From assembly GCF_048128805.1 (NCBI RefSeq), contig NC_136005.1, positions 18,626,260 through 18,690,259 on the forward strand: a stretch of DNA of 64,000 bases, read 5' to 3'. How positions within the stretch are numbered: position 1 is the stretch's first letter; the number at the start of each line of letters is the position of its first letter. Made by a program: the position numbers and the translations under genes. Below, in pieces: positions 11,827 to 61,024 of this stretch. Under the pieces are notes generated by a model. The model saw nothing but the letters and a program-made list of their open reading frames with translations, ran no database searches and had not been told where the DNA came from. The DNA is from Centroberyx gerrardi. Its lineage: Eukaryota > Chordata > Actinopteri > Beryciformes > Berycidae.

Positions 11827-11935
11827 CTCGCTTTCTAGGAATAAGAGAGATTCAAAATCCCACAAAAAAAGTGAAACTTCTTGATCCAAATTCTGGGAGA
11901 GTAGTAGGCAGTGACGTCACGGTCTGAAATTCCAG
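11827..11935 (-). promoter_or_regulatory. Candidate promoter and non-coding first exon, minus strand
   Basis: A perfect cAMP-response palindrome TGACGTCA lies at 11912-11919. About 85 nt downstream on the minus strand is a good splice donor, CGAG|GTAAGG, with the exon end at 11827. The surroundings (11.2-12.0 kb) have more CpG than the rest of the flank. No coding frame crosses the donor, so this would be a 5' untranslated exon of a gene running left out of the window. In mammals LPP is the divergent neighbour upstream of BCL6 and has non-coding 5' exons, so lpp is a reasonable but unproven candidate. Confidence 0.35.
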
Positions 11936-21149: not shown

Positions 21150-21637
21150 TCGACTTGACTCACTTCAGCCCGCTGCCGTGCCGCTTTTCTAGAAGCATTC
21201 CCATCCTGCCGGAGAAAGACACCAGAGGTTTTCTCCAGAGCCGCTCTGCCACCGCCAGACACACAGATCTGCTGCCCTTTTGCACTGAAGACAGCTTCGT
21301 CTCTCAAGCTTTAGCTGTCACTCAGGAAGGTTTGGGTTCCAGTCAGACTCTGCGTTCTGGATCTTCTAGCTTACCAGAAAAAACCCTGGTAAAAAAAAAA
21401 GAAAAAAAAGAAAAGAAAGAAAGGCTGGTTGTTTCTCGCTGTGCTCCGGATCTTACTATCGTCAGGTAGAATAACTAATTGAGCTCTGCGGCTGGCATCT
21501 CTGAAAAGACATTTGGAAGCGCACCAGAGGCCCTCGCTGCCTGAACTTGGCTCAAAGCTCTGAATTCAAGGTTCTGCACTGCCTCCTGATTCCCACTACA
21601 GATCCCATCATGCCCCACTCCTTCCAGCAGAAAAAAG
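21150..21637 (+). other. Possible exon ending in a splice donor
   Basis: This interval is GC-richer than its flanks. It contains a 104-residue open frame (21155-21469) of unclear composition and ends at a strong splice donor AAAAAAG|GTGAGA (exon end 21637). A short in-frame start codon at 21610 (MPHSFQQKK) runs into that donor. It may be an upstream non-coding exon of bcl6a or a separate transcript. I do not recognise the peptide, and no partner exon could be joined with confidence. Confidence 0.25.
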
Positions 21638-21759
21638 GTGAGACTTCTTTTTGATTTGTTTAATGCTTGCTTTATTTTCTGTTTCTCCGCAGTCATGTTA
21701 GTTACAATCACCACATTTCTGTGCTGGCAAGATAAATGAACGTGGAGCAAGGCGTTGCT

Positions 21760-24380
21760 GCAAAACAGAATGCATTCTCAGCAAACCCTCCCCGAATTAA
21801 TAAAAGTTTAAAAAGTAAGAATACCTGAAACTTTTTAGATAACTTACTTTGGGATGCCATCAGACCAATGTTAGTATATACTGTCATATATACTGCCACA
21901 AAGCTGCATCAGACATTATAACACATTATATTATCAATTGTCCACAAATATCAAGAATTATTATTTCCTAGAAAATATAATTCAAGCATAAACAACAATA
22001 CATAATAGTTTGCTAATATCTGTAAATACAATGGGCTTAGTCATGAAATTCTTTCCATTCTGTTGCATTCTGCCCGAGAGCAATAATCTGTATTGCAATG
22101 CAAATTGTATGGAGAGAGATGCAATTATGTGACATGTCAGGTAAGTATAATACAGTTGTGAAATAACACAAATAAACATCATGAAATCAATTTTCACTTC
22201 TTCCAATCATGCTGAGGTTAAACCCAAGACCTTGGAGTTGTCAGTGTGAATCATGAGCTACAGGCATGTGAGCTACAGCTAAACAGGATGAGTGGCACCA
22301 AAAGACATTCTTATACATAATCGTACAACAATGGCCAGCAACGCCGGCTCGCTAACTCCTGGATTTAAATGAACTGATAAAACAGTATATTTTCATACAA
22401 TTTTTCTGATGATTAGCTAATCTCTGAGATTAAATCAGTATACTTTTGAAGCCCTTGAAGTACCAAATCTTAGTCTCAACATTAACAAGAGTAAGCCTGC
22501 AAAAAAAACATCATAGCATATGGATATGAGACATTGGTTGACGAAGATCTTGATAAAACAACTGACATCTGACAAGCAAATGCGAGTACTGAATGCATTT
22601 TGATGGCGTCAGAGGTTTATCTATGTAAAAGCAGGTAGAGTTGAGCTAAGATAGGATCTGAGAGATTTTCATTTTCACTCATTTTTTATCTTTCTGTAAG
22701 CCTTTCTATACCCTTCAAGAATCTTTCCACATGCGCAGTAAAAAGACACTAAAAACAAAGCTTCGGGCTTTAAGTAAACCACAGAGTGAACCTAGGTCAA
22801 ACGAACACATTATCACCTCTTACTCAGTCTTTCAGTAAAAGAATGGAAGCCTTTTACCGTTATTACCATTTTTCATTTTTTCAAAAAGTTTTAAGCAGCA
22901 ACATGCCACTTCCCTCAACCCTTTCTGAACCTTTGAATTGAGGGTCACTAATGTACACACAATACTGACGGAAATATTTGGTTGATTTTCCTTTAAATTC
23001 ACAAGTGATGCTATCAAGAAATGTTTGTCGTCCCATGCAAGCAAAGCACAAAGTTTGTCAAACCTCGGTGGATAAATTCAGGAGTGTCTTCATGATGTGT
23101 GACAGCTGCTGGTTGTGCCACTGTGTGGATAGGTAGGACCTGCTGTGTATATTAGAGTTGTCACCCTGCTCTTATATGGAGCACTTGCATCGTTTCTGCA
23201 ATCACCACCTCGACCTGCCAGTTCTCGGGCGGTGGAGCTGGTTTTCATGGAAGCATTGGGTGATGGATACAGTAGCTGCTGTTCACTATGCTGAGGTGCC
23301 TGATACATTTGTAAGGAAGACGAAATAAAATGCAATCAGAAAGTGTGTTCAAAACTCCAAACATGCATAAATATACTGTAGATAAATGAGGTTTTTCAGA
23401 GTTCAGTATAAAGTGCTATGAGGGCCAACTGGAAAAAAAAAATCTAATGAAAACTGATACATTTTAGACAATACTAACGCAGTTTGCTTAACAAATGAAT
23501 AGAAGAATTTAAATTTAAATAGCTGCAGCTACAGAGATCATGTCTATCTAGAGCCACCATGGTTTTCTTTCTGAATATTTCTTTGTCTGTAAATTTACAA
23601 CTTAAATGCAGCATTTAATGAAATTACATGTGTATACATTTTCTTTGAGGTATATAATTAGGTTGTAAAAATGAGTCCTGCTTTGTTTTGTGTAAATTCA
23701 TAAAAACACAGGGAAATATTTGTTTATCTCATCCTTGAATCCATGACATTGCCTAGAGTACTTCCACATTTTTTAGGTAGAGCAGTTGATTTCTGGGGCT
23801 TGGTGGGATTGCTTTCATCCTGCCCAAATCCCATGTTTCCATGTTGGATTTAAATCCATTTACTGCCTTGGCTGGAGGAAACCAAAAGAGCTGACATGAA
23901 ATTGCACCTATATACTAATGGATGCTGCGAATGTTTGATGCAGATGGAATTTCCTCTATCCAGATACCAAAATATGTTGAGGGCAAATGCCAGATTTCTT
24001 TCATGAAAAAAGTGTATGAAGCAGCTCATCCAGATTATACACAGCGGCCATACAACCACAACCACACTGAATTCACACAAGTCCTATCTGAGCATTTATA
24101 AAAACAGAGTTGTAATCACAGTGGACTTGACATTACATCTGTGAATGCAAAATTAATTGTTCACAGTTTATCCTGCTATCCAGTCTATTATATATGATTC
24201 TTTACGCATTAAGTCAAGTACCTATATGGACTTTTTGGCTTGGTGGAAGAAACTGACCAATACTTTATGCATGATTACATTTACATTTTAGGAATTTAGA
24301 TTTTGATCTTATCCAGATCAACTTATGAATCTGTCCATCACTATCAAGTAACATCTATCCATCTATCCATCTATTAAGTA
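21760..24380. other. Gene-poor stretch
   Basis: AT-rich DNA with no exon or named repeat apart from a small ATCT microsatellite at about 24353-24375. Confidence 0.5.
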
Positions 24381-29729: not shown

Positions 29730-31950
29730 TCAAAACTCAAAACTGTAAAATTTATTATCCCACAAAATGCATCTTTTCTTACTGTTTCATATTACGACCG
29801 TTTCACAAGATCATTATGTAAATCCAAATGACAAAAGCTGTCTTTTTGAATATGGGATATGCTCAGTGCGCTGAAGATAGCATTTTATTTGAATATTTAG
29901 GACAAAACCACTATTGATAACTGCACACAACTTTTAGTGATTAAATCTCAACTACAACAAGATCATGGCAGAAAGGCATGGAGGCAATGCTTTAGTCATT
30001 GTATGCCCACAGATCTGTACACTGTTACGCAAATCAACTGTATCATTAAAATATTTAATTCATGTTGCATATTTTGTGCCATCACAGCAATTAGGCCTAA
30101 CTAATCCATTAAAAACAAATCAACACATTTTCTGGTATTGCGTAATTTAATTTTTGGAAGTCAAAAGGGATTCTGTGTTATTTTTATTAAAAAATACTGA
30201 AGATAAAATTTTGAAGAGGGGGGGAATTTCACTTGGTAACACAGTTCTAAAAGTTCTCACACTTAAACTGTTCAATATAATTTGTTTTCTGATTGAATTT
30301 TTTACACTTGTATTTGCCCTATATTCTCAGCGCAACAAATGTTCCTTCTGTGCCAAGGAGTCAACGGGATGAGAGAAGAGGGGGACTCAGTGGTTTGGAG
30401 CCACCACAAACAAAGTTTCCAAGGTGAGTCAGTGAGAGTCGACTGCTTACTCACAACTCATGAAATTAATAAAACTTTTTCAGATGCAGTCATACAAATC
30501 TTCTAACCAGGCATCACAAACAATCTATCAGTTAGTAAAAGACAGCTTTGCAATTAACATCAATAGCCAAATGATGGTCATTCACATCAGTCCCCAGTTC
30601 CAATGCGGTGGGACAAAATACCCAAGTGAATTCTCTTTTATGACACCATGTTACACTAAGGCCTAGTTTGCGATAGGTTTCCAAGGAAGAGGCCACAAAG
30701 TAAAACACAATACTAGTATGCTGGGAAATAAGAGTTTATTGTTGCCCAATTCTGAGATGATGCAACAGGGAGTACACACATGCTTTAAACAAAACAGGGA
30801 GGGGGGGAAATCACAGCAATGCATTCAATTAATTTTCCAGGAATTCTTCACTATGCATATCAATGAAGAAAATTATTTTTTTTTGTTGGAAATGTGCATC
30901 ATATCATCTGACATGGACATGTTTCACACTCACACACACACACCCCCCCTCTAATTAACCACAGTTATATAATTCATTAGGCATTTAGTTACAAAAAACA
31001 GTCAATCGCCTTTGAAAAGTGACAATAAGTGACAATAGGAGACTGGAGTTGGACTCAGTGGTGTTGTGTTGAGGAGGACATAGCCTATTGAGGAAGTACA
31101 GTGACTCCAATTATGGGAATAATACCAGACAGATACGGGAGGATACTCTGTTCACCAGGTATTTACGTATTACAACACAAAGACTTGACCTAGACATTAA
31201 ACCTCTTCATAACTTCAGCATCTCTTGAATCTTTCTCAATTTATTTGCTGCTGTACTTTATTCTTCAACACAGCCTATATATTAGAATTTAAACCAGTGG
31301 GAGATTGCACTCACATAACCTCGATGCACACTGGGCATCCTATGCAGTAAAATAGCTGTAATTCACATGTCACATTAAAGCCACTGTCTAGGCTTTCACT
31401 TTAGAGGTTGCGCTCGCTTTCATGCAACAAGTTTGCCTGTCTTGTGTTGAAGTCAACACGGTCGCACCTACAGTAAACCTCCTCTGCCTGGTTTCGGACC
31501 AGTGCATGGCCGCTCTGTAACCGCAATGTAGCCTATCGCTTCAGCGCATTAAGGTTATTGTCGAGGATAGCTCTAGGGCAAATATACATAACGTTAAGAT
31601 AGGCTCAGCAGAGAAATTGCTTATTAAAAATCACGTCCTGAACCTGTCGAGTGCCAATTATATTATGCATTTAAATTAAGTGGGAAAACAAAAACAGCTT
31701 AGGAATCACATCGAAATGAACTGCATTCCACTGACAGCTACAGACTTTACGAATAATGAATTTGATAAGCCTTCCTTTACAACAAACCCTCGCTGGCGAT
31801 TCGCAGCATTCCGCATCTATGAAGTCAGCATACCTGCAGGGAATTTGGCTAAAAATGAGTTCTCGATAAGAAGAAAAACAAGAAAATATCACATCGACCT
31901 GTCCGTATGGGCCTAATTAAGATCTCCGGTTGTGTGCTGTACGTGTAAGG
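29730..31950. other. Non-coding sequence upstream of bcl6a
   Basis: AT-rich to about 31.4 kb, with a short CA/C tract at 30931-30950. From 31.4 kb CpG content rises towards the bcl6a promoter. No coding exon seen. Confidence 0.5.
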
Positions 31951-31959
31951 TCTGTGTGT

Positions 31960-32401
31960 TAAAAGCGATGGGAAGCAACGAAAGAACACATTGCTTAAGT
32001 CATGGAATATAAATTAGTTCTGAGAATTTGGGGGGCTGGGTTTAAAGAACCGGTGACGTCGCCAGCTCGACGTCCTGTGACTGGAAGCGACCAAAAGCGG
32101 GGGGTGTGGATCAAAATGTAACATTTTCGCTCATTATAGTGAAAAATAATACAGTTTTCGGTTCTTAATCGAACTTGAGGTTTATGCTATGATTGTCGTA
32201 ATACTCGCTATGCGTAATATGCGTTGAAATAACTGTTTCTGAAATAAGTTGTTCTGGCCGTGAGGAAAAAAACGTGTCTCCCCCGCCCTCGGAAAGTGGT
32301 ACGGTCACAGGCTCAAATTCCGAGAATTGAGCTCGTCTGATTCTTAGAACTGGGGTTCTTAGAAGTGGTGATGCAAGAAGTTTCTAGGAAAGCGCTACCA
32401 G
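31960..32401 (+). promoter_or_regulatory. bcl6a: Putative bcl6a promoter and non-coding first exon with TTCNNNGAA cluster
   Basis: This CpG-richer block lies 2.4 kb upstream of the first coding exon. It contains five TTCNNNGAA palindromes, the core read by STAT factors and by BCL6 itself: 32018-32026, 32318-32326, 32341-32349, 32356-32364 and 32382-32390. The last reads TTCCTAGAA on the minus strand, the classic BCL6 consensus. A CRE-like TGACGTC is at 32054-32060. A possible donor CTACCAG|GTGATT follows at 32401. Mammalian BCL6 is known to repress itself through sites in its untranslated first exon. The exon boundaries here are inferred and the start of transcription is not visible. Confidence 0.55.
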
Positions 32402-38417
<6,016 letters not shown>

Positions 38418-45478: not shown

Positions 45479-48400
45479 CTATACCAAGTTTGCCTTACTG
45501 TCTTTGGGCTGCGGCTGGCCGGGCCTCGCTGGTTGCCGGTTTTTGCTGGGGAGTTCGGAGCTGTCTCTGTAGTCTCGGGGTTTAGCTTGCTGGGGCTCCG
45601 GCAGGCCGGGCCGGGACTTGACAGGCAGAGGGGGCCGGTTGTTTGCCATGCCCCCTTCTGAGCGTGAGGGCACCACTGGTTTCTTGAACGTGGTAGGGTG
45701 CAGGGTGGGGGGGCCCGAAGGCTGAGGTTTGGTCTCGGAGCAGGTGAAGGATCGGTTGCGAGGGGTGGGCACAGGGGGGCGATCGGGATCCCCGTCCGCC
45801 GGTTTGGAGGATCCAAACATGGCATCTGGGGGTGCAAGGTGGTCCTTCTGCTGAGGTTCTTGCTCCTTGCCCCGAGTGTGTGATTTCCCCATTGCACCGT
45901 ACAGAGGATTGTCAAACATCTCTGATGGCTTTTCATCCTCACCGCTAGGAGACACAGAGTTAGGTAATAAAGATTCAGTTTCACACAGGCCTTTCTGTTG
46001 AATCATATTAGCTGATATCTTATGTAAGAGTTAAAAATGAAATGTTGTATCTTATCCAAAACAGACACTTACAAAAGACCTGGTGCTTTCCCCGTGGGAC
46101 TGCGTGTGGTCGCATCGTAACTCTTTTTGGGAGGGATGTTGCCCAGGTGCAAGTCCTTACTCACTTGCCCAGCCGTTCCTTTTGGTGGCATGCTGTAACT
46201 CCAGCCCTTATCTATTGCACTCCCAGTTTTGAAGATCACTCCCATGTAATTGGGGTTAGTAATATCAATTGCGTGGGGAAGGGCAAATCTGTCAACCAGA
46301 AAAAAAGAAATCAAACACTGAGGTCATGTGATATTGTGAAGTAACCACAAGATAAAAGAAATATCTTACTTGCTCAGGTTGTCACTTCTGCATTTTGAGG
46401 TGGCAGGATCATCCTTTTCAACTTTGATGAAATCTGAATAAACAGAATAGACAGAATAAAATAGCAATTGATACTAAAATAAAAGCATGAATTTATGAGA
46501 AAGAATAAACTGAAAATAGCATAATAGCTATGTTTTGCAAATTTTCAGGTCAGTATCCAAATGTTTTACAGTAGATTATAGCGTACTGTTTAGGACAGAA
46601 AGCGATCTAACAGATTTTCAGACTCACCATATAGCTTTTCTGTCTGCTTGCCCTCTGAGGTGCGTAGCTGGATGCCCCCTGTCAAGGTGCCTGTCCTCTC
46701 TCCATGGTGAGTCAGCGTGACGTGAAACTCGGTGTAGCAGTACTCAGCGGCCCGCAGCGCAACACAGCCCTCTCCTGCGGGAACAGCACAACAGCAAGAG
46801 AATATTTAAAGTCTCGCTCAGCTCACTGGGTCTGTATTACCGTATGGAGGTTTATTACCGTAAGACTCGTCGCAGTCTGTTGACTTGACACAGATGAGGA
46901 TGTGCTGATCCAAAAGGTACTCTGGGTCTGAGATGATGGGAATGAGCTTGAAGAGAGATAAAAGACAAAGACGATAAATACTGATTTTCATGCACCACAA
47001 CAATCAACTTGCATACTGAAAACTGCGTCCTCATTTTACCTCAACTTGAGCGCCAAACCGGACTTTTATTGACCCATCTGAGTGCTCCGTGTTCTCTCCC
47101 TCTGAAGTCTTCACAATTTCTGTGGACATTTAGAGTCATGCTTGTAGTTTTTCTATAACTGCCCATATTAAGGCCATTGTAATAGAATCCAACATGATAT
47201 AGTCAATCAAACAGAGTGCAACATACTCTCCAAGCAGCTGGAATGGTATTCAATGAAGAATTTTGTCTTCGATTTTGTCAATAAGGTGGCAACACAGTTC
47301 ATGAACTGTATCCCACCTTGAGACACATTGTTTGGATCTGGAAAAAAAACAAACAGAAATTATTACATCATACTGCAGATATTGGAGCAAAGACGTTTGT
47401 AGAACACATAAACTCATCTGCAGCGGGACATAGAGGGTGAAAGTACCGTTCTTGGAGACAAACTGCGAGGCCACTCCGACTTCAAATGTTGCGAAAACTG
47501 GTGAGTGGTCACTTGTCATGATGTCATTAGAGCACCCTGCAAGTCGAAAAGTTTGCCCAAATGATTGTGCTTCACCAAATGTCATCAAAACATGCAACAA
47601 CATTGTCCATTGAATGTTACCTACCATACGACTGGCAGACAACATGAACCAGAGGGTATGACTTCCGCAGGACGCGATCACACCAGGAGGGAAGATTGTA
47701 TTTTGTCTGCAGAGTAGAATTCATTGAAAAGTAAGAACCTTCAAGAAAAGCTTAAAAATCAGGCCCTACAGAGACAATTTCAGCAATGCCACCAAGCCTA
47801 GTAGTGCTGAAGTTGGTGCTATTCTAACTGCTAGATGGTCAGATGTTTAGTCTTCATTCAAACTATACAAATGCAAAAGTATCTCCCATAGGAAGCCTCG
47901 CTTTGGCCTTCCTACAGGGGAAAATGTTATTTTGTAATTTTAAAAAAAGTATGAATTCATGCCAAATATGAACAAATTCATTCAGGATGTAATGTCTGGA
48001 GCTGTTCCATAAAGAATGAATTGGGGACAAATGGTAAAAGTGAGTGTGTGAGCACCCAGGCAGAACATTTATTGGTTCAGAACCACAGAAAAAAGCTCAT
48101 TAAGATATAAAAAACTCAAAAAACATTCTGTGCGTTCACAAAATGAGACTCCCATTCATTGTTACTTCATAACAATAAGTATAAGCTCTGTTTCTGTAGC
48201 AGTTGTCAAAAACAGCGTTGCAAAGCATATAACTTTAAGTATCAGTAAAGCACCTAAAATCTTTTGGAAAGTTGAAGGAGACATGTCTGTTTTAACATTT
48301 TATTTGATCCCTCATTTATTTTTTAGTTTGCTGTTTGTGAATAGCACAATGTGTGAGAGGAAGAATGACTTGATCACTAAAGATACACGTGACTAACTAA

Positions 48401-59198: not shown

Positions 59199-60218
59199 TC
59201 AGAACTCAGACTTTGCGCTCACTGAGCTCTCATGTGTTCCCTTTAACTCTGCGCTGGTGGCTCCTGAGACCCCCGCCTTATCTCTGCAGAACAGCCGTGT
59301 CAGCGTGCCGCGGAACTTCTCTGCCCCGAACAGGTAGACCAGCGGGTCCATAGCACCGTTCAGACAGGTGAGGGAGGAGGTGAGGCGGTTGGCGAGGCTC
59401 AGGCCCCTCCGGGTCTGGCAGGAGATGCCTGGGTGGCCGTAGCCCAGGATGAAGGTGGCCCTGCTGGCGTGATACGGCAGGAAGCAGACCACGTAGATGA
59501 GCATGACCAGGCCGATGGTGCGCAGGGCCCGCAGCTTGAGGGCCGGTTCCAGCCGGGAGCCTCGATGCAGGCTGTGGATGATGAGCAGGTAGCAGGACAG
59601 GGTGGCGAGGAAAGGTGGGGTGAAGGCCACAGCCAGCGAGATGAGTGCGTTGCGCGAGGCCTTCTCTCTGTACAGCTGCAGGCACACCGTCACACCATCC
59701 ACCTCCGCAGTCTGGCGGGTGACCAGCAGGGGCGCCATGGAGACAGTGACCAGCGCCCACAGAGAGAAGCTGATGATGTGGGCGTAGCGGGCGCGGCGAA
59801 TCTTCAGCGATCTTACAGCGTGAACCACAGCCAGGTAGCGGTCGCCCGCTACGCACGCCAGGAAGTACAGACTGGCGTACATGTTGACGTAGAACAGGAA
59901 GCCGGCCAGTCTGCACGGCACCTCGCCGAAGGGCCAGTGACCTCCGGTGAGGTGGTAGGTGGCCCTCAGCGGCAGGATGATCACATACGACAAGTCCGCC
60001 ACAGCGAGGTGCAGCAAGAAGACATTCGCTGGGGAGGAAGTGCCGCGCTGGTGAGAGAAGATCCAGAGGGCCAGGCTGTTTCCGTTCAGGGCCAGGAGGA
60101 AGACCAGGATGTAGAAGCCTCCGAACAGCATGTTCTCAACGGTGTTATCCACCGCTGCACAGCTCACCGACGACTGGTTGGACAGCAGGGAGGGAAGCTC
60201 TATTGTAGAAGACTCCAT
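59199..60218 (-). CDS. gpr17: G protein-coupled receptor GPR17 (P2Y/CysLT-like)
   Basis: One uninterrupted coding exon of 1,020 nt, 339 aa, equal to the short human isoform. GPR17 is a rhodopsin-family receptor of the P2Y/cysteinyl-leukotriene branch at the plasma membrane; in vertebrates it marks and restrains maturing oligodendrocyte precursors. Seven hydrophobic helices are evident. Helix 1 contains LALNGNSLALWIF, helix 2 LHLAVADLSYV, the end of helix 3 GDRYLAVVHAV (DRY box), helix 6 FLPYHASRATFI, and helix 7 NGAMDPLVYLFGAEKFR (a DPxxY variant as in the family). The tail ends SVSAKSEF, close to the family SLSAKSEL. I chose the ATG at 60218 because CCACCAAAATGG is a good Kozak context and lies next to a splice acceptor (CTATTTCCTTCAG, ending 60227). 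An in-frame ATG at 60272 would sit in the intron. It shares the minus strand with inpp5d, 2.2 kb upstream of its start. Confidence 0.95.
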   Translation of the reverse strand: MESSTIELPSLLSNQSSVSCAAVDNTVENMLFGGFYILVFLLALNGNSLALWIFSHQRGTSSPANVFLLHLAVADLSYVIILPLRATYHLTGGHWPFGEVPCRLAGFLFYVNMYASLYFLACVAGDRYLAVVHAVRSLKIRRARYAHIISFSLWALVTVSMAPLLVTRQTAEVDGVTVCLQLYREKASRNALISLAVAFTPPFLATLSCYLLIIHSLHRGSRLEPALKLRALRTIGLVMLIYVVCFLPYHASRATFILGYGHPGISCQTRRGLSLANRLTSSLTCLNGAMDPLVYLFGAEKFRGTLTRLFCRDKAGVSGATSAELKGTHESSVSAKSEF

Positions 60219-60227
60219 TTTGGTGGC
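60219..60227 (-). other. gpr17: Splice acceptor before gpr17 coding exon
   Basis: CTATTTCCTTCAG ending at 60227, followed by CCACCAAA and the ATG, implies at least one upstream non-coding gpr17 exon that I could not place. Confidence 0.75.
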
Positions 60228-61024
60228 TGAAGGAAATAGACAGATGTTAGTAAATGCTGTCCTACATATCAAGATAATACCAATTCAGTTAAAATTAGAA
60301 TGCATCTGCCCCCAGAACAGATAACTACCCCATCCTGACCCTTTATTATTAGATCTTTGTCCTTCTATTTACAGCTTATCTGGCCCAGCTGTCTGATTTG
60401 TCACTGTGGATTCTCCCATCCAGACCTCTAAATACTCATTTCCGGTGACTTTTGAGAGAAGACTTGTGATTGTATCCCAATTCGTTGTTACCAGCTTTAA
60501 GTTCAAATTTTGAGTATGAAATTGACCCAAATACCCATATATCCAAATAATGCCCTTGTTTTTGAGGGAATGATGAAATGAGCCCATGACATTGATATAA
60601 TACTAGTCACCACTCACATTCTGTCTGTTGTTTCCAAAGGGAACCCACTCCAGATATTAAGGTCAATTTCCAGCATTCCTCATAGGATTGCATAGGCTTA
60701 CAGCAAGGCCACCCCCATGTGGTGTGACAGTCCTTAAGGCAAGACTTTAGTGTACACATTGAGACTGATCATTTGATTCCCCCATGCCATTTTTGGACAC
60801 TGCATTGGAAATACTTTTTCAATCTGAGAGAAGAATTAAGAAGCCCCCGCAAAAAATAACTACCCCTCCCCGTCCCTCCCTCAACTCTGGCAAGCTACAA
60901 TGCTCCACTCCTCTTTTTCTGTTTTTATTTCCACTTTTCTATTTCTGTCTCAACCCAACAACTACACAAACAACATCTTACATCAATTAATCCGAGAATC
61001 AAAAGGCTTCACTGGCCAGGTTAA

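Follow-up and report, generated by a model that had tools for sequence, protein, structure and literature searches.

The predicted first exon of bcl6aa in Centroberyx gerrardi contains four palindromic TTCNNNGAA sites within 73 bp, and this cluster is very probably (at roughly 0.85, judged from sequence comparison) the fish orthologue of the BCL6/STAT element in exon 1 of mammalian BCL6. The window, i.e., the whole stretch of DNA analysed, comprised 64 kb; its features are listed in Table 1. The sites, the identity of the gene, the exon-1 location and the conservation are documented here.

The site cluster and the first exon of bcl6aa

The original prediction described five TTCNNNGAA palindromes at 32018–32390 (373 bp), four of them inside 73 bp (32318–32390), and these positions proved exact. 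As a "cluster of five", the description was only partly upheld: the four-site element stood, whereas the fifth site, at 32018, lies 300 bp off and had no conservation support. The expected density was also revised, from the previously given one site per ca. 4 kb to one per ca. 2.7–2.9 kb for TTCNNNGAA in this DNA. The window as a whole was not enriched in such sites (24 observed, 22.2 expected), which fits a chance origin of the cluster; however, none of 400 simulated 64-kb windows (first-order Markov) had more than two sites per 73 bp (one in 262 windows, two in 138), and the cluster is nearly identical to mammalian BCL6 primers in the published excerpts available. In the same simulations, the maximum number of sites per 373 bp was four, reached once. 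Simulation of 20,000 stretches of 601 bp with the local composition yielded at most three sites in 73 bp and at most four in 373 bp, once each, and the Poisson estimate for the four-site cluster was 1.8 × 10−6 per site, multiplied by 24 sites. The four-site cluster is far outside chance; a fortuitous grouping is hardly credible and was refuted for these four sites, although chance stays the default for 32018.

The site at 32382 was found to be TTCCTAGAA on the minus strand (TTCTAGGAA on the plus strand), an exact BCL6-type core as originally claimed, and the only one among the four sites. Counting either strand, the window holds this core three times (11833, 21965 and 32382); therefore, the core alone is nothing special. 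The copy at 21965–21973 lies 328 bp past the distal exon A, and single copies such as this one and that at 11833 may well be chance. Sites 2 and 3 are identical TTCTTAGAA sequences with a pitch of 15 bp and a gap of 6 bp, and most plausibly represent the tandem STAT pair already known. STAT5 tetramers prefer a spacing like this pitch.

Table 1. Features of the window, with coordinates counted from its first base
Feature	Position	Strand	Remarks
Distal first coding exon A	21610–21637	+	MPHSFQQKK; good splice sites
Alternative 5′ coding exon B	30331–30423	+	AQQMFLLCQGVNGMREEGDSVVWSHHKQSFQ; good splice sites; like exons in annotated fish proteins
CpG-rich promoter-like stretch	31800–32399		CpG o/e 1.15 and 1.18 for a pair of overlapping 400-bp segments (0.38 in the whole window)
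Isolated fifth site	32018–32026	+	TTCTGAGAA; 300 bp upstream; putative background
Site 1	32318–32326	+	TTCCGAGAA
Conserved 3′ part of exon 1	32329–32401	+	Primer matches; junction in annotated proteins of other fishes
Site 2	32341–32349	+	TTCTTAGAA; first of tandem STAT-type pair; within 22/25 human BCL6 primer match
Site 3	32356–32364	+	TTCTTAGAA; second of tandem pair; within matches of human (21/21, 18/18) and mouse (22/22) primers
In-frame upstream ATG and 10 codons	32371–32401	+	MQEVSRKALP plus 1 nt; joins E-L-D-K-M-A-C of exon 2
Site 4	32382–32390	−	TTCCTAGAA BCL6-type core; overlaps V-S-R-K codons of exon-1 frame
bcl6aa exon 2	34795–34966	+	Usual start codon at 34806; start of BTB domain
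Remaining bcl6aa coding exons	35076–35297, 35383–36345, 36896–37077, 37195–37362, 37477–37607, 38013–38150, 38274–38417	+	Gene model

The gene is BCL6 "a", as had been claimed, and more exactly bcl6aa, as indicated by BTB structures, named relatives and the full gene model. The predicted gene comprises nine spliced exons from 32371 to 38417 and encodes 716 aa, including a BTB domain and C2H2 zinc fingers (Pfam), and its first coding part matched human BCL6 BTB structures. Among the 120 of 210 matches listed for the middle exon, proteins named "BCL6A transcription repressor a" (two from Hucho, one from Salmo) showed 62%–72% identity at 92%–97% coverage, whereas those named "BCL6A b" (Kryptolebias, Polymixia, Phyllopteryx) showed 32%–46% identity at 32%–72% coverage. 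Thus, the named "a" proteins were closer over this exon, identifying the gene as bcl6aa. On the minus strand, an open single-exon GPCR frame at 59199–60284 had a uracil nucleotide/cysteinyl leukotriene receptor as its best PDB match (383 bits), and we take it to be GPR17-like. Another open stretch on that strand (45479–46030), to which Pfam assigned no domain, presumably resembles the C-terminal tail of INPP5D (SHIP1). These downstream neighbours appear to differ from LPP, TPRG1 and TP63, the synteny given for zebrafish bcl6aa in the accessible part of PMC9650189, although the window may end before those genes.

The sites had been placed at the bcl6a promoter. They are not upstream of the gene but in its predicted exon 1, adjoining the splice donor: site 4, the last of the cluster, stops 11 bp short of the donor (ACCAG/gtgatt at 32401/32402). 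The predicted exon 1 joins exon 2, which starts at 34795 with AACTTGACAAAATGG, in frame, and the same exon-1/exon-2 junction recurs in the annotated proteins of numerous other fishes. Vertebrate promoters are often CpG-rich, and the CpG o/e ratio reached 1.18 at 32000–32399 (GC 44%), with raised values (0.8–1.0) running on to ca. 33.4 kb. The GC content of the CpG-rich stretch was only 42%–44%, and the usual CpG-island cut-off lies above this range. A conserved RNA structure in the 5′ untranslated region would suit palindromic sites, which are able to base-pair on a single strand, but the final 112 nt of exon 1 folded no better than shuffled sequences (z = 0.76; 153 of the 200 shuffles were equally or more stable), and Rfam gave no hit at the gathering threshold in the whole window. 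An RNA structure is therefore disfavoured and very improbable as the reason for the conservation.

Comparison with exon 1 of mammalian BCL6

The comparison with mammalian DNA rests on human and mouse BCL6 primer sequences, taken from the accessible parts of published papers and scored against the window. Four of them matched the region of sites 2 and 3 closely: a human RT-PCR primer at 32329–32353 (22/25, next-best place in the window 17; PMC7762542), a human qPCR primer at 32351–32371 (21/21, next-best 15; PMC7288929), a human ChIP primer for the BCL6 exon-1 autoregulation site (18/18, next-best 14; PMC7288929) and a mouse ChIP primer at 32353–32374 (22/22, next-best 15; PMC4667269). An RT-PCR primer for Bcl6 from a mouse study (PMC8770984) scored 15/20 at 32379–32398, a total that is weak by itself (next-best 14/20); what gives this match weight is the primer's first 14 bases, which are identical and span site 4. 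Where such primers permit comparison, the element is thus in the same gene and the same exon as the mammalian BCL6 sites, with near-identical DNA.

The claimed likeness to mammalian first-exon sites was accordingly borne out, best for sites 2 and 3, but four further primers were unconvincing. These were a mouse exon-1/exon-2 primer (14/20 in the window), a human reverse ChIP primer (14/18), a human reverse qPCR primer that scored 16/20, but at the unrelated position 21738, and a mouse primer reaching across the donor into intron 1, which scored 15/22 both at the expected place, where its first nine bases, spanning the donor, are identical, and at unrelated places. Thus, mammal–fish conservation fades past the donor. 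The human and mouse reverse primers are presumably situated in intron 1 and exon 2. Past AGGAAAG, the tail of exon 1 reads CGCTACCAG in the fish and GCCGGACACCAG in the mouse primers. No printed human or mouse sequence covering site 1, or the joined pair, was found in the papers searched. Exact exon-1 strings had no matches in prokaryote and virus contig collections, as expected there, and a primer-string match in PMC12247995 was dropped as PHGDH cloning DNA.

An absence of conservation, which would have spoken against the original prediction, is countered by these published primer excerpts together with exon-1-encoded N-termini in many fishes, the exon 1 of the window being the sole fish exon-1 DNA compared.

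An in-frame ATG within the cluster and alternative N-termini

The ATG at 32371, inside the cluster, opens without a stop into the BCL6 reading frame, and the V-S-R-K codons that follow (GTT TCT AGG AAA) contain site 4. Conservation among fishes was read from protein N-termini, which cover site 4 and, in one species (Oryzias javanicus, P0122), also site 3. The N-terminus survey comprised the 120 relatives listed among 246 hits; most of these records are predicted genes, and an exon-1 start can become visible only in species where it is in frame. Methionine at −14/−15 together with S-R-K at positions 5–7 was found in 49 of the 120, whereas 33 began at the usual start, 33 had other extensions and four had methionine at −14/−15 without S-R-K; the latter had unrelated sequence there, two being of the exon-B type. 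A single protein (P0197; 1/120 listed) began with MQEVSRK without the usual start. The 49 included proteins of salmonids, eels, tarpon, catfishes, a medaka relative, gar, sturgeon, bichir and coelacanth, five rows from two turtles (Chrysemys and Trachemys; sequence MQGVSRKARRPGRVE) and three named bcl6ab proteins (Centroberyx, Diretmus and Semicossyphus) beginning with MH[RK][VI]SRK, so that site 4 and the in-frame ATG appear to be shared with bcl6ab. Other named "b" proteins among the matches listed were annotated from the usual start (Kryptolebias, P0098) or from further in (Polymixia, P0099). The survey shows, at the level of annotated sequences, that exon 1 and its junction with exon 2 are old; annotated starts are no proof of translation.

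The annotated protein of O. javanicus (P0122) contains ELGFLEVVMQEVSRKALP, a peptide that arises in the window when exon 1 is entered at TTCTTAG/AACTGG inside site 2 (32341–32349), and its F-L-E corresponds to site 3. The sequence TTCTTAG/AA at 32341–32349 could act as a putative splice acceptor, and P0122 fits such use. Further upstream, exons A and B together would place 44 alternative N-terminal residues ahead of the usual methionine, in a predicted protein of 746 aa in all. Sequences like exon B were found in 22 of 234 proteins using a loose motif. Hence, bcl6aa probably has a distal promoter and an alternative N-terminus. Bases 32348–32370 would be coding only in the form that joins exons A, B and 1.

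These reading frames raise the possibility that the conservation serves the N-terminal peptide MQEVSRK..., with the binding-site match as a by-product. This would agree with the in-frame opening in the window, with the annotated starts in many fishes, the coelacanth, two turtles and bcl6ab, and with a possible isoform entering exon 1 at 32348, which would make 32348–32370 coding as well. However, positions 32329–32347 were noncoding in every model built (in-frame TGA at 32338) and are nevertheless part of the 22/25 match to the published human primer, and 32348–32370, noncoding in transcripts started in exon 1, had no mismatch to the human and mouse primers covering them. Moreover, the annotated starts are mostly predictions, and a protein database shows in-frame cases only. 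Because the conserved block starts before the ATG, includes the TGA at 32338 and is kept as far as mammals, binding-site constraint is the simpler cause, and peptide coding is an improbable explanation of the conservation. The exon-1 ATG of the window is in frame with BCL6, whereas no mammalian exon-1 frame is known to run into BCL6; the human exon-1 ATG presumably opens a short upstream reading frame, only partly under the primers.

The in-frame ATG inside the cluster, as an annotated BCL6 start in many fishes, the coelacanth, two turtles and bcl6ab, appears to be new here. The exon-1 peptide (searched as MQEVSRKA, MHRVSRK and VVMQEVSRK) was in no paper found, although prior art may be missed, and the accessible texts on BCL6 and upstream open reading frames included none about the leader of BCL6 itself. 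A tentative extension, to which we give clearly less than even odds, is that the exon-1 BCL6 site is put to dual use. The site itself would be translated in bony fishes, as probably already in the ancestor of bony vertebrates, adding MQEVSRKALPELDK- before the BTB domain, and the choice between the proximal exon-1 promoter and the distal A/B promoter would select self-repressed or differently tailed isoforms. Mammals would then have retained the sites but not the frame, so that an upstream reading frame remained.

Proposed regulation of bcl6aa and its implications

Negative-autoregulation sites in exon 1 of mammalian BCL6 were reportedly described by Wang in 2002, Pasqualucci in 2003 and Mendez in 2008. 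By analogy with mammalian work, from which binding, corepressor use and repression are carried over, the Bcl6aa protein would bind its own exon 1, chiefly at TTTCTAGGAAA (32382), and recruit corepressors, and bcl6aa transcription would thereby be lowered. Activated STATs, STAT5 foremost, would occupy the tandem TTCTTAGAA pair (32341 and 32356) as two adjacent dimers and may also repress bcl6aa. For mammals, the available portions of the literature describe BCL6 self-repression through exon 1 (PMC7288929), repression of BCL6 by STAT5 via tetrameric sites (PMC11507070), STAT sites alpha to delta and an added epsilon in the human BCL6 promoter and first untranslated exon, and repression by pSTAT6 via STAT sites of the same region in lymphoma lines (both PMC3759668). 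The two TTCTTAGAA sites of the window are alike to the STAT5 tandem (tetramer) sites of the BCL6 promoter region as presented in those portions. According to a 2024 review (PMC11507070), the zebrafish bcl6 promoter has tandem STAT5 sites that are almost identical, and the likeness of these to the window is by description only in the part of the review available. The STAT half of the idea is therefore already in print for zebrafish, at least in that part.

An element for STATs only, through which STAT5, STAT3 or STAT6 controls bcl6aa while fish BCL6 represses itself weakly or not at all, is a rather unlikely alternative. Three of the four sites differ from the BCL6 core TTCCTAGAA, the longest identity to the published mammalian primers is that of the tandem TTCTTAGAA region, and the accessible text of PMC11507070 names zebrafish STAT5 sites and not autoregulation there. 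On the other hand, site 4 is an exact BCL6 core, the S-R-K codons over it persist in 49 of 53 listed proteins that have methionine at −14/−15, and the human ChIP amplicon for BCL6 autoregulation, as given in its published primer, begins at site 3. A combined BCL6/STAT element thus remains the preferred reading. The original statement that the self-regulatory switch is kept in this fish is a functional claim that would lie beyond any sequence tool.

Use of the exon-1 ATG would give fish BCL6 N-termini that are absent from mammalian models, in which case knockdown or tagging designs in fish should allow for them. The near letter-for-letter retention of the element in fish suggests that a feedback and cytokine switch on this gene may be older than mammalian germinal centres, and such a switch could be tested in zebrafish or medaka.
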